DNA from: Golubevia sp. BC0850
Lineage: Eukaryota > Basidiomycota > Exobasidiomycetes > Golubeviales > Golubeviaceae
Assembly: GCA_012976225.1 (NCBI GenBank)
Contig: JAAVVG010000001.1
Span: 930,001 to 994,000 of the forward strand
Reading direction: 5' to 3'
DNA length: 64,000 nucleotides
How positions within the stretch are numbered: the first letter of the stretch is position 1; the number at the start of each line of letters is the position of its first letter. Below, in pieces: positions 9,858 through 14,247 of this stretch. Under the pieces are notes generated by a model that had not been told where the DNA came from, ran no database searches, and worked only from the letters and a program-made list of their open reading frames with translations. Made by a program: the position numbers and the translations under genes.

Positions 9858-10302
9858 TTCCGTTAGAGGGGCGATTAAGGGGCCGAATACGATCAAAGGC
9901 AGAAGTGTGTGGTAGCAATGTTCCAGAAAACATGTGAAAGGAAGAAATAGAATGGATTCATAGGATCCAAAGGGCATGGAAGACGATGGAAGGAATGACG
10001 TGGAATACACTGTGCTATCTTCTCCTTAAGACCACAACAATCTTCGACCACCGTTTCCCCTTTATTTCCCTCTCTTCTCCTTAGAATTCAAATAGTGAGT
10101 GAATGATCTGCCTCCATTTGGTTCACTTGGTTCACGCACTAAAGACAAACTTGAATACTAATCTCTCTTTCTCCTCTCCTCTCCTCTCCTCTCCTCAGAC
10201 CTACCACTACCCTCATCCACATCGTCCTCTTCAACTTCAACTTCTACTACTCCTACTTCCTTTCCTTTACTTTCTGACTTCAACTTCAACTTCTTCTAGT
10301 CC
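9858..10302 (+). promoter_or_regulatory. Promoter and 5' UTR of the HAC1-like gene
   Basis: It contains a TGACGTGG motif at 9996-10003 and a likely 5' UTR intron from GTGAGT at 10095 to TAG at 10299. That intron holds five perfect CTCCT repeats (10171-10195) inside a long pyrimidine tract. The ATG follows four nucleotides after the acceptor. No other gene is seen. Confidence 0.5.
9996..10003 (+). promoter_or_regulatory. TGACGTGG element (XBP1/Hac1-type UPRE)
   Basis: This is an exact match to the metazoan XBP1 unfolded-protein-response element core, about 100 bp upstream of the putative 5' UTR intron and 300 bp upstream of the HAC1-like ATG. HAC1 genes in fungi are known to activate themselves, so an autoregulatory site is plausible. 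An 8-mer occurs by chance about once per 33 kb counting both strands, so position rather than the match alone carries the argument. Confidence 0.4.
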
Positions 10303-11751
10303 ATGACTCATTCACGTAAACGTAAAGCCAGTTCTTCTGCCAGTGATGAATCGGAGGAGGAGGACTACCAACCAGCAGCTCCAAAGTCAACCAATCCAAA
10401 GAAGGCCTCCAAACCGATGGATCCAGCTCGTAAAGCCTTACTGGAAGCAAGGCAACTTCGGAATAGACAATCAGCTCAGAATTCTAGAGATAAGAAGAGA
10501 GCTCATCAGGAGAACTTGGAGGGTGAGAATGCGCAGCTGAAGCTGCAACTCCAAGAGAGCGATAGGCAAAGGCTTCAACTTCAGGGAGAGGTCGGAATGC
10601 TCGGAGGAAGGGTAAAGGCTTTGGAAAGTCTAGTGGCAGAACTTCTAAAGGCTGGAGTGGGAAAATTACAGCCGGCCGGATCACAAGATGCTCTTCCTCT
10701 AAGCCAACCTCTAACGTCCACGTCCATTTCAACCTTCAACGATCAATCTTCTTCAACTTCATCCACAATCAATCACAATCTATCCACAGTTCCTTTAGTC
10801 AATCCACTGGAACCTCCAACTTCATCTCCACCGTCGTCCTCAAACCTCAATCCAATTCCTTTCAACGATACCACTCCTACACCTTCTCTACTTCCTTCCT
10901 CAACGATCGCAGCGCCCGACGATACCCCCCCTAACTTTCCTTCTCAACTTTCCTCTTCGTCATCTACTCAACTCTATGGTACTCGTCTTCCAGCAGCGGA
11001 GACGACAAGGTCGTGGAAGTTCGCTTTACAAGCAGCCCGCCTCCTTCCCCAGCAGCGGGTACCTACGCAAGGAGAAGAGAGTTTGACAACAAAGAGGAAG
11101 AGAATGGAATCTCTGGATTGGAATCGTCAAATGGCAGCAGCATCGTCAAGAGTGGGATCTCAGACGAAGGAAGAAACGGTGACATCAACGAATGGAACGG
11201 ATTGGTCTCAACAAGAGGAAGCTCAAACCCCATCAGCCTTCATGGAAATGGAGAATCAAGATCCATCGAAAATGACGGAACAGGATATGGATATGGATGC
11301 TCTCTTAGCTCAGATGCACGTGGAATGGCAGATGGAGAGCGATCTTTTGGATCTGGATTGGGCGGATTGGAAGGAAGAGGATTCTCAAGTAAAGGATCTA
11401 ACCCCAACGGAGATGGAACAGGAACTCTCGTCTATTCAAACGACAGCTCCTTCTTCAACGACGACAATAGCAAGAGAGCCACTACTTCTCTCAACTTCTT
11501 CCAAACGCAAACCTTGGAGTCAACGCAAGCGTCAGAGGAGCTCCTCGACCTCAACGATCAACTCGCTACTTGGCTCGAAGACTGCATGGCCTTCTCCATC
11601 AGAAAACGTCAGCAGACACAAAGAGAGGACAAATGTCAGGATCAGAGTCAGAATTCCGAGGAGAGCAAGGTCCAAATTGGACAAGAAAGGCAAAGCAAGA
11701 AGGAAGAACGTCAAAACGTCGAACAAACCTCAACCTCAACCTCAGATTTAG
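10303..11751 (+). CDS. Unspliced translation product of the HAC1-like gene
   Basis: Without the predicted Ire1 splice the same start codon gives a 482-aa protein. It shares the first 230 residues, including the bZIP, and then diverges. Its own tail is strongly basic near the end (SQRKRQR, RIRVRIPRRARSK, KKGKARRKNVK) and lacks the acidic region of the spliced form. In XBP1 and fungal Hac1/Cib1 the unspliced product is unstable or inhibitory; whether that holds here is unknown. The region 11053-11751 is open in both frames and would be read in both forms. Confidence 0.6.
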   Translation: MTHSRKRKASSSASDESEEEDYQPAAPKSTNPKKASKPMDPARKALLEARQLRNRQSAQNSRDKKRAHQENLEGENAQLKLQLQESDRQRLQLQGEVGMLGGRVKALESLVAELLKAGVGKLQPAGSQDALPLSQPLTSTSISTFNDQSSSTSSTINHNLSTVPLVNPLEPPTSSPPSSSNLNPIPFNDTTPTPSLLPSSTIAAPDDTPPNFPSQLSSSSSTQLYGTRLPAAETTRSWKFALQAARLLPQQRVPTQGEESLTTKRKRMESLDWNRQMAAASSRVGSQTKEETVTSTNGTDWSQQEEAQTPSAFMEMENQDPSKMTEQDMDMDALLAQMHVEWQMESDLLDLDWADWKEEDSQVKDLTPTEMEQELSSIQTTAPSSTTTIAREPLLLSTSSKRKPWSQRKRQRSSSTSTINSLLGSKTAWPSPSENVSRHKERTNVRIRVRIPRRARSKLDKKGKARRKNVKTSNKPQPQPQI

Positions 11752-12098
11752 GAAATGATTTCGACACTCTCACTTCTACTTACGCCCCAACGGAAACCTT
11801 TCGATTTGGGTCTCACCACGCTCAAGCTGTTGATGAGGAAGCTCAACTTCTCCTCTCTCATCTAAACGACAACAGCCTCTCTGGCGATTCAATTCCTTCT
11901 CCTTCTTCTTTCATTGACCTCGATTTGGATATCGATATGTCTACTTCAAATGGAATGGATCTTGGTAATGCTCTCGATTTGGAATTCAACAATGGAGGAG
12001 GTCTTCAAGGTTCAGCTCCTCCTTCTGCTTTCATTTCAAATCACTACTCTTCTACCGTCTCTCAAATGGAATCAAGCTGGTCTGGAATCTTCGCTTAA
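10303..12098 (+). CDS. HAC1: HAC1/XBP1-type bZIP unfolded-protein-response factor (predicted Ire1-spliced form)
   Basis: Transcription activator of ER-stress genes. Exon parts are 10303-10993 and 11053-12098, giving 578 aa. The basic region (LEARQLRNRQSAQNSRDKKR, about residues 47-66) has the N-x7-R bZIP core with the Ala-Gln pair typical of Hac1/XBP1 rather than the AAxxSR of most bZIPs. A Leu-rich zipper follows to about residue 118. The bZIP frame ends at 11751, but removing 59 nt with non-GT-AG ends (10994-11052) joins it to a second frame. That frame encodes a Ser/Thr-rich region and an acidic, hydrophobic C-terminus (FIDLDLDIDMS, SSWSGIFA) of activation-domain type. Both cut sites are CAG|CAGC heptaloops, as Ire1 needs. 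The splice is inferred from sequence and known biology of the family. Confidence 0.8.
10994..11052 (+). other. Predicted 59-nt unconventional (Ire1) intron
   Basis: The intron starts CAGCGG and ends CCCCAG, so it is not a spliceosomal GT-AG intron. The 5' site is a seven-base loop CAGCAGC (10991-10997) on an 8-bp stem of TCGTCTTC with GGAGACGA (one G-U pair). The 3' site is the same loop (11050-11056) closed by CCC/GGG. Both loops fit the Ire1 consensus CNG|CAGN. The length of 59 is 2 mod 3, as for XBP1 (26), Cib1 (65), hacA (20) and HXL1 (56), and it is the residue needed to enter the downstream frame. A 10-nt direct repeat, CCAGCAGCGG, at both ends makes the product the same for any cut inside it. 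Confidence 0.78.
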
Positions 12099-13005
12099 AC
12101 TCTCCCCTTTTTTTCCGTCCTGTAAATCTTCTTCGACCCCCCCCCCCCACACCCTCCTTTCAACTTCTTCTGTTAATTCTCTCTGTTCCCTTCTCACCAC
12201 TCTGTTCACACACGTCAGCTGAGCTGTTTCTTTCCTTCCGACCCTGTTTCTATATCCCTTTGTAACAATTCTTCTCTCTTGTAACCTGCCATGACTCAGA
12301 TACTCAGATCATACTTTCTTCAACTTCAATTTTCAATGTACTTCCTCCCCGCCTACTTCCTGTAGCCGCCTCGACCCTTTCCAACGATTCTACTCTTTCC
12401 AGAATTGCTTTGCGGTTCCGGCTACCCTCAATTACCCATTTCCAATTGGAAAGGAAGAGAGATAAATCCGATTCGACTCCCTTTTCAACATTCCTGCGAA
12501 GAAGGCGGGCGCAATTTTAATACGCGAGGTGTTCAAGGTGGTACTTCTTCTTGCCGCGTCCGAACAAGTTCCAACGAGAGACGCCACCGCTTCGGTTTTG
12601 GAAGCACAAGGTAAGATAGAAAGTCTTGATTAATCAGCTTGGACCTGAGGCCTTTACGAATTTCGAGGACAAGGTCGTCGAACGCCAATGACGATCATCG
12701 ATCATCCCTTGAACTCTCTATTCTTCCCAATTTTGCTATCGTCGCCCCAATGGTCCCACGGATTTATGCAGTCGCCTAATCAAAGGAAGTCTTCGGAACC
12801 CGGGGTTGCCTAAACTACGTTTCATTTTAAGGAACCCAAATCTTTGTTTATAGAAGGCTGAGGCGCTGGGCAGGAGAGAACTCCCTCTCCCCTTTTAAAC
12901 AAGTCAAAAAAAATTGATTCTACTTTGTTCCTTCTACTCGATCACTCCCCTTTCCTGTGAATTCAGTATCCTAAAGCGCAATCAGCTCAAATCTCCGTTT
13001 CAAAG
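12099..13005 (+). other. 3' region of HAC1-like gene and upstream region of the bHLH gene
   Basis: There is no coding region. It starts with pyrimidine-rich 3' UTR including a run of nine to ten C. ACACGTCA at 12210-12217 is the reverse of TGACGTGT, close to the UPRE core. A purine/AT-rich stretch precedes the bHLH start. No RNA gene was recognised. Confidence 0.45.
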
Positions 13006-14247
13006 ATGTCATTTCAAGAGACTTCCTATCAAGATTACAGATTCCCATCTTCACAGTCACTCGACGAAATCAACTCAACTCAACACTATCAGCCGCATGT
13101 TCCCGAATCATCTGGCTCAAGGCTTTTAAGTAGGATAGAAGCTCCTCCACCCATACTTTTACCTACAAACAAGCCTTCCCATCAACCGTGGCAAGGTCCA
13201 ACTCCAACTTCAAAGTCGTCAGGCCTAGACCTCAGCGGAGATTCTAGAAGTAGTAAAGCTTCATCTACTACATCGTCATCTGAGAGTAAGCTTCCGAAAG
13301 CAAGGAAGATGCAAGCTCCAAAGCAGCTTCAGGAGAGAGGCAAGAGAAAGCCTCTGGACAGGACCATTCACAACGCTAGCGAGAGGAAACGTAGAGGAAA
13401 CCTGAACAACCGCTACCAGGTGAGTAAAAGAGAAAGAAGGTATCTCAGTCTTCCTGGGTTTCAAGAACTGGGCGCGTTTGCTCGATTTCCCCTGGGCTCC
13501 TCTGTGCACCCCTTTATCTGACCTTGATCTGTCTTCTTCTTCGCCCATGACCTTCAGGAACTCGCCGCTCTCCTACCCTCCCTCTCAAGAGTGAAACGAA
13601 GCTCAAAGCCTCTGATAGTCAATTCAGCTCTCACTTTTGTCGAAGCAGCTTTAAACACCGAGACGCTATGGCGTCGAAATCTCGAGGCGCTTTCAAGTGA
13701 AAATGAGATCTTACGGAGTTTACTTAATGAAGAACGTTCGAAATCAGGTTTAGAACCCATCACTTCTCAAATAGCAATTGAAATCCCTAGACCCCTATCT
13801 GAAATTGGAGTTGGAGATGAAGATGGAAGTCAAGAAGGAGAAGGTGAATTCGAAGAAAGGTCACCTTATGATATCATCCACAGAAGCATCTCAGATGAAG
13901 AAGGAACTTTCTCAAGTAACGGTACGACGATTTCAGACAGCCAACTAGAGAAAAGTTTCAACCATCAAGATTGGGATAATCAAAGTCAATTTTCTGATTT
14001 GACTACACCGGTTGCAAGTCATTTCCTCAGACCACCACCTCATGTGATGTTACCTATTAGATGTCATAATACTTCTCACTTACCAACTCCAATTTCAGGT
14101 TCAAGTTCAAATCATTTCTTTCAATCTCCTAATGATGGTTTCGCTCCTGAAGAACTCAATCAATATGCTACTCATAGAAGATCTACTTTACCGATGTCTT
14201 TTCCTTCCCATTTTAATCATTATTCTCATTATCCTCAGAACCTTTAA
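13006..14247 (+). CDS. bHLH transcription factor
   Basis: Two exons, 13006-13419 and 13558-14247, giving 367 aa. The intron (GTGAGT...CAG) falls inside the helix-loop-helix. The bHLH spans about residues 120-170: the basic region RTIHNASERKRRGNLNNRYQ has the H-x3-E-R-x-R-R pattern of E-box (CANNTG) binders, and helix 2 reads KPLIVNSALTFVEAAL. The N-terminal 110 residues are Ser/Pro-rich and disordered. After the domain comes an acidic patch, then a His/Pro/Ser-rich tail. Related fungal proteins include general class-B bHLH regulators; I cannot assign a specific orthologue. It lies directly downstream of the HAC1-like gene on the same strand. Confidence 0.85.

Follow-up and report, generated by a model that had tools for sequence, protein, structure and literature searches.

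A 64,000-nucleotide (nt) stretch of DNA from the basidiomycete Golubevia sp. BC0850 (contig JAAVVG010000001.1, positions 930,001 to 994,000 of the forward strand), hereafter the window, contains at 10303-12098 a bZIP gene of the HAC1/XBP1 type with a predicted 59-nt Ire1 intron, which in all likelihood is the HAC1/XBP1 orthologue of this fungus. Its product is very probably the master switch by which the cell responds to misfolded secreted proteins. The defining features of the gene are a Hac1/XBP1-type bZIP domain, twin loops of the CNG^NNGN type (with ^ marking the cut), a shift of the reading frame to an acidic C-terminus upon removal of the sequence between the two cuts and the lack of spliceosomal ends on the removed piece. 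A member of the Hac1/Cib1/Hxl1/XBP1 family is to be expected, and what is unusual here is a stretch of about 230 codons that seems to be read in two frames. A preliminary description, made from the sequence alone, had recognised here the pattern of Hac1, Cib1, HXL1 and XBP1; the loops, the frame shift, the type of bZIP, the absence of spliceosomal ends and the acidic C-terminus agree with it, and the fit is less clean for the second hairpin, which is weak, and for the codon statistics, which keep the frame unchanged at the site. The dual-coding signal, the UPRE-like promoter site, the spliceosomal intron of the 5' UTR and the 10-nt direct repeat reported below go beyond that description.

Overlapping reading frames and twin cleavage loops

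The bZIP frame starts with an ATG at 10303 and runs to 11751 on the forward strand, encoding 482 amino acids (aa), and a second frame, open from stop to stop at 10935-12098, overlaps it by 272 codons. The overlap of two long frames had been claimed before and is confirmed, with the second frame open even from 10935. Loops at the borders of Ire1 introns are 7 nt long and follow the consensus CNG^NNGN. The heptamer CAGCAGC is present at both 10991-10997 and 11050-11056, giving two CAG^CAGC loops with exactly 59 nt between the cut points, and when 10994-11052 is taken out the frame shifts so that both frames are joined into a single one of 578 aa; spacing, shift and product are all as the preliminary description had it. 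Its further statement that the removed piece lacks GT-AG ends can be extended, since GT-AG, GC-AG and AT-AC ends are absent from every one of the 11 equivalent junctions. Such equivalence arises because both loops sit in an identical 10-mer, CCAGCAGCGG (10990-10999 and 11049-11058), and hence 11 placements of the junction lead to the same spliced RNA. This repeat would also permit reverse transcriptase to switch templates, which could create a false splice product.

The first loop is carried, as had been claimed, by a stem of 8 contiguous base pairs (bp), one of them G-U. When folded in isolation (31 nt), this hairpin has a z-score of -2.39 and only 5 of 200 shuffled sequences fold as well, and in contexts of 240 and 440 nt the pairing probability (P) is 0.51-0.52 for the two pairs adjoining the loop and reaches 0.75-0.98 in the remaining six, so that the folding models describe a solid hairpin. 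In a 96-nt fold, loop positions 3 and 4 flanking the cut are unpaired in both loops (P 0.95-0.97), and a possible closing helix around both loops, in which GGUAC pairs with GUACC, has P of 0.73-0.97.

With 155 on each strand, the window contains 310 CNGCNGN heptamers, among which the one at 10991 has the longest stem, the next-longest being of 7 pairs and located on the opposite strand. With the looser motif CNGNNGN, it is the sole heptamer among 1415 with a stem of at least 8 bp. The pair of loops was further compared with 2000 synonymous shuffles of the gene, using codon usage from seven other long open reading frame (ORF) stretches in the window and requiring the first loop to lie 400-1000 nt into the gene, a spacing of 15-400 nt and a pair that joins the frames. 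Under these limits, none of the 2000 shuffles contained a pair whose stems measured at least 6 and at least 3 bp, and relaxing the first stem to at least 5 bp gave 3 of 2000 with CNGCNGN and 13 of 2000 with CNGNNGN. The twin-loop arrangement is more than chance.

The bZIP domain and the two C-terminal tails

Pfam scores above cut-off were obtained on the segment 10426-10668 for bZIP_1 (29.7 bits, cut-off 27.6) and bZIP_2 (25.2 bits, cut-off 22.3), with scores on the whole ORF (20.5 and 21.7, respectively) falling under these cut-offs. Over the 23 residues of the basic region and hinge, the predicted protein is identical at 13 positions to yeast Hac1 and to Aspergillus HacA, at 11 to XBP1 and to bZIP60, and at 8 to GCN4, 8 to CREB1, 6 to c-Fos and 8 to c-Jun. 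These counts against eight reference sequences make the Hac1/XBP1 likeness of the basic region a supported lead, with less weight than a result from a database. A search against solved structures returned TGA7 as the sole match (E 0.39).

The 348 residues that follow the junction in the spliced product (231-578) carry a net charge of -29, and the last 150 aa of the 578-aa product contain 23 D/E and 6 K/R residues (net -17), which bears out the acidic C-terminus proposed earlier. The unspliced protein would end differently, with a strongly basic stretch of +23 over its last 92 residues. Ahead of this basic end lies an acidic, Trp/Leu-rich (D/E/W/L-rich) stretch, DALLAQMHVEWQMESDLLDLDWADWKEED, which looks like an activation domain.

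Coding signal in two frames

The coding scores are based on codon tables drawn from nine further ORF stretches in the window. Over 11752-12098, the second frame alone looks coding (0.283 vs -0.143 and -0.222), and over 11053-11751 both frames are positive (0.051 for the second frame and 0.093 for the bZIP frame), with the third frame at -0.205. Over 11055-11451, the bZIP frame scores 0.161 and the second frame 0.105, both of which are above the maxima of the off-frame controls (0.030 and 0.024; 136 leave-one-out, overlapping chunks of 132 codons of each kind) and within the range of true-frame controls (mean 0.199, standard deviation (sd) 0.076). When the amino acids of the bZIP frame were held constant, none of 4000 shuffles left the second frame open over 11055-11751, whether codons were permuted or drawn from codon usage, and thus this frame is not due to chance. 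Less favourable to dual coding is that permuted shuffles given the bZIP frame reach the second-frame score in a share of 0.043 over 132 codons and 0.30 over 231 codons, so that composition by itself accounts for part of the double signal. As no credible spliceosomal intron is present (see below), the double signal is read as dual coding, and it appears an evenly balanced matter whether about 230 codons are kept in two frames at once, as reported for XBP1. The same even balance applies to the part of this reading in which both isoforms are DNA-binding proteins under selection, each with its own tail.

The principal alternative to dual coding accepts Ire1 splicing and holds that downstream of it just the spliced frame is functional, the bZIP frame remaining open to 11751 as a by-product of composition. 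Support for it comes from permuting the codons of the second frame with its protein kept, where 642 of 4000 shuffles leave the bZIP frame open to 11751 and 2389 of 4000 leave it open to 11463, from the mean log relative synonymous codon usage over 11055-11451, which is higher in the second frame (0.134 vs 0.04), and from Cryptococcus, where according to the available portion of PMC3154848 unspliced Hxl1 protein was not detected. Shuffles that follow genome codon usage, however, leave the bZIP frame open to 11751 in just 4 of 4000 and to 11463 in 264 of 4000, and its score exceeds that of all 136 off-frame control chunks named above. Furthermore, the bZIP-frame score over 132 codons is reached by a share of 0.0136 of permuted and 0.0044 of usage-based shuffles, and that over 231 codons by 0.0046 and 0.0008, respectively. 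A by-product frame is quite conceivable, at somewhat short of an even chance.

Counter-evidence and other explanations of the frame change

Several observations weigh against the assignment as a HAC1/XBP1-type gene with a 59-nt Ire1 intron. The contrast seen in the basic region is weaker when the whole 54-56 residues of the bZIP are compared with the eight references, with 17 identities to Hac1, 21 to HacA, 16 to XBP1 and 16 to bZIP60, and 12 to GCN4, 14 to CREB1, 13 to c-Fos and 16 to c-Jun. Relatives of the bZIP part were not found in the viral and prokaryote contigs scanned, nor were relatives of the C-terminal part in the viral contigs scanned. Regarding RNA structure, the stem of the second loop comprises just 3 bp (CCC with GGG, P 0.06-0.20); an isolated 36-nt piece around this loop folds in another way (z -1.30), in which GCCCGC is paired with bases of the loop region, and a 61-nt piece likewise takes a different fold (z 0.37). 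The closing helix drops to P of 0.13-0.18 in the 240- and 440-nt contexts, and the entire region is not more stably folded than shuffled sequences (z -0.86 for 96 nt and -0.66 for 126 nt). An alternative 3' loop, CAGACGA, is located at 11161-11167 on the same strand with a 3-bp stem; its use would take out 170 nt and would likewise fuse the two frames with no intervening stop. The loop at 11050 is preferred over this one, which is less similar to the first loop, because it is identical to the first loop, its stem is all G-C and the GGUAC and GUACC segments can enclose both loops. Lastly, the best codon change-point from the bZIP frame to the second frame is placed at 11310 (all codons) or 11463 (synonymous only) and not at the Ire1 site, which these positions beat by 7.6-11.7 and about 9 log units, respectively, with a further change-point almost as good at 11730-11748, close to the stop codon that ends the bZIP frame. 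A model in which one frame is simply followed by the other is therefore incomplete, and either a conventional intron in that stretch or a dual-coding region is called for.

A conventional spliceosomal intron near 11310-11540 that joins the frames, with the CAG loops being incidental, would account for the change-points at 11310 and 11463, and the coding scores of both frames are indeed near zero around 11403-11652. Raw material for such an intron is present, as 10940-11760 contains 24 GT dinucleotides and 215 frame-joining GT...AG pairs of 38-399 nt. However, the best donors among these match 2 of 4 consensus positions (51 of the 215 pairs), and none of them is accompanied by both a YAG acceptor and a CTNAY branch; the 6 pairs that have both YAG and CTNAY, with lengths of 158-341 nt, use donors matching 0 or 1 of 4 positions. 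No donor of the form GTRNGT or GTANGN is found in 10994-11751, and 11290-11480 holds three GT in all. With such an intron the second frame need not be open at 11055-11391, yet synonymous shuffles of the bZIP frame leave this part open in only 29 of 4000 cases (permuted) and 1 of 4000 (usage). In addition, the twin loops would be a coincidence, and the near-equal change-point at 11730-11748 would be left without explanation. There is thus no good spliceosomal alternative, and we consider this explanation highly improbable. The 272-codon overlap and the required shift of -1 would also suit a pair of unrelated genes that overlap, or a programmed -1 frameshift by which the ribosome passes from one frame to the other, but these explanations can be practically dismissed, as the single XXXYYYZ heptamer in 10935-11751 (the scan being limited to this form) is out of register with the bZIP frame and twin Ire1-type loops at a frame-joining spacing would be left without explanation.

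Promoter, 5' untranslated region and surroundings

The features of the gene are collected in Table 1. The exact sequence YGACGTGGAA of the site resembling an unfolded-protein-response element (UPRE) occurs once in the 64-kb window, at 9996-10005, where 0.15 occurrences are expected and 13 of 100 shuffles contain at least one, a search that was made after TGACGTGGAAT at 9996 had first been spotted by eye. This site matches 10 of 11 bases of the Ustilago Cib1 motif, given in the available text of PMC6490947 as T/CGACGTGGAAG, the 11th base being T instead of G. Sites matching YGACGTGGMA with one mismatch are at chance level in the window (9 found vs 8.14 expected). The UPRE-like site is suggestive of autoregulation of the gene, and no more.

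The spliceosomal intron predicted in the 5' untranslated region (UTR) has a polypyrimidine tract between TACTAATC and CTCAG, and once it is removed there is no other ATG in 10000-10302. Pairing of the 59-nt intron with the segment 9900-10302 gave a duplex value of -34.0 vs -30.73 (sd 3.54) in 300 shuffled introns, a share of 0.17 of which were as good; in these duplex models, a yeast-type translational block by pairing of 5' UTR and intron is hence not seen.

Table 1. Features of the predicted HAC1/XBP1-type gene, in window coordinates
Feature	Position	Strand	Description
UPRE-like site	9996..10005	+	TGACGTGGAA; promoter, 307 bp upstream of the ATG
Predicted spliceosomal intron, 5' UTR	10095..10198	+	104 nt, GTGAGT ... 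TACTAATC ... CTCAG; strict consensus scan
5' exon	10303..10993	+	ATG, Hac1-type bZIP (basic region LRNRQSAQNSRDKKR), linker; codons 1-230 plus one base
Possible closing helix	10978..11063	+	GGUAC (10978-10982) with GUACC (11059-11063), around both loops
5' cleavage hairpin	10983..11005	+	8-bp stem, heptaloop CAG^CAGC (10991-10997)
Predicted 59-nt Ire1 intron	10994..11052	+	
3' cleavage hairpin, weak	11047..11059	+	CCC with GGG stem, heptaloop CAG^CAGC (11050-11056)
3' exon, second frame	11053..12098	+	Acidic C-terminus, residues 231-578 of the spliced protein
Unspliced-protein tail, bZIP frame	11056..11751	+	Acidic first part, then strongly basic end; dual-coding candidate

The neighbouring gene at 12976-14247 on the forward strand encodes a bHLH transcription factor and has a canonical intron at 13420-13557, its joined protein (209 aa of which were used) matching Pfam HLH with an E-value of 5.3e-10. 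The content of the window is fungal, with a fungal-specific transcription-factor domain, DOT1, SIR2, a DEAD-box helicase with a KH domain, GH92 and TBC, and its guanine-plus-cytosine content is 45.5%. ARAGORN, run with bacterial settings, found no tRNA genes in the 64-kb window, and Rfam gave no match at gathering score over the whole window and, over 10200-12300 with E up to 5, just two irrelevant matches far under the gathering score.

Proposed mechanism and implications

Under endoplasmic reticulum (ER) stress, Ire1 would cut after G3 in both CAG^CAGC loops and tRNA ligase would join the exons with the loss of 59 nt. The resulting 578-aa protein, with the bZIP fused to the acidic C-terminus of the second frame, would activate unfolded-protein-response genes and perhaps act on its own promoter via the UPRE-like site, and the unspliced mRNA would yield the 482-aa bZIP protein with a different tail. 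If dual coding is true, the gene would specify a two-state transcription factor, whose unspliced form may serve as a basal activator or an antagonist and not as a silent precursor. The role of an unspliced Hac1-type protein could then be addressed experimentally, a question raised for Cib1u in the accessible part of PMC6988420.

Owing to their strong divergence, HAC1-type genes can escape ordinary searches, as illustrated by HXL1, for which the initial BLASTp is described in the consulted portion of PMC3154848 as giving nothing significant. An intron that can be recognised from sequence would provide a convenient means of reading out ER stress in this fungus.

Comparison with known systems

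The preliminary description had regarded 59 nt as an unusual length for such an intron. This view does not hold, since published HAC1 introns span 19 to 848 nt in the available text of PMC6222058, making a 59-nt intron ordinary, and the Ire1 intron of Cryptococcus HXL1, described in part of PMC3154848, is 56 nt long, with CAG at both borders and with an additional conventional intron of 55 nt. A literature search, with most subscription journals outside its reach, returned no report of this gene or of a 59-nt HAC1 intron.

The Golubevia gene very probably works like Hxl1 and Cib1. In the same available portion of PMC3154848, HXL1 of C. gattii has long overlapping frames encoding 406 aa unspliced and 426 aa spliced, and HXL1 is described as being without the yeast-type 3' element or 5' UTR pairing. 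Compared by description only, the Golubevia gene resembles HXL1 in being a bZIP gene with a similar Ire1 intron length, CAG borders, a spliceosomal intron as well and overlapping frames, and differs from it in the 59-nt length of the intron, the location of the spliceosomal intron in the 5' UTR instead of the coding region and the size of the spliced protein (578 vs 426 aa). The cib1 intron of Ustilago maydis is 65 nt long. According to the accessible parts of three sources, cib1 is a stress-spliced bZIP regulator (PMC6988420, PMC6490947, PMC4836707), and a possible regulatory role of its unspliced transcript or of Cib1u is raised by the authors of one of these (PMC6988420). The likeness to cib1, again taken from its description only, lies in a bZIP gene with a predicted Ire1 intron and in a UPRE-like site that fits the Cib1 motif.

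In Saccharomyces, the 252-nt HAC1 intron is described in the available text of PMC3154848 as pairing with the 5' UTR and blocking translation. The Golubevia gene shares with it a basic region that is identical at 13 of 23 positions, and a C-terminus swapped by predicted Ire1 splicing; unlike in Saccharomyces, pairing of the intron with upstream sequence is no better than that of shuffled introns.

With XBP1, the Golubevia gene has in common two 7-nt loops, a basic region identical at 11 of 23 positions and overlapping frames. XBP1u carries a hydrophobic membrane-targeting stretch, and in this respect the unspliced Golubevia protein is unlike it, as no such stretch is seen: its hydropathy over 19 residues peaks at 1.04, within the zipper region (residues 97-115). 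The XBP1 intron is given as 26 nt in the literature available to us, and the two 7-nt loops of metazoan XBP1 are cut after G3, as far as described in the consulted part of PMC4891664. Isoform U of XBP1 is counted among functionally distinct frameshifted variants in the available text of PMC2329644, where Nekrutenko and He 2006 is cited on its overlapping frames. If both frames of the Golubevia gene are selected, it would represent a fungal counterpart to the overlapping frames of XBP1.

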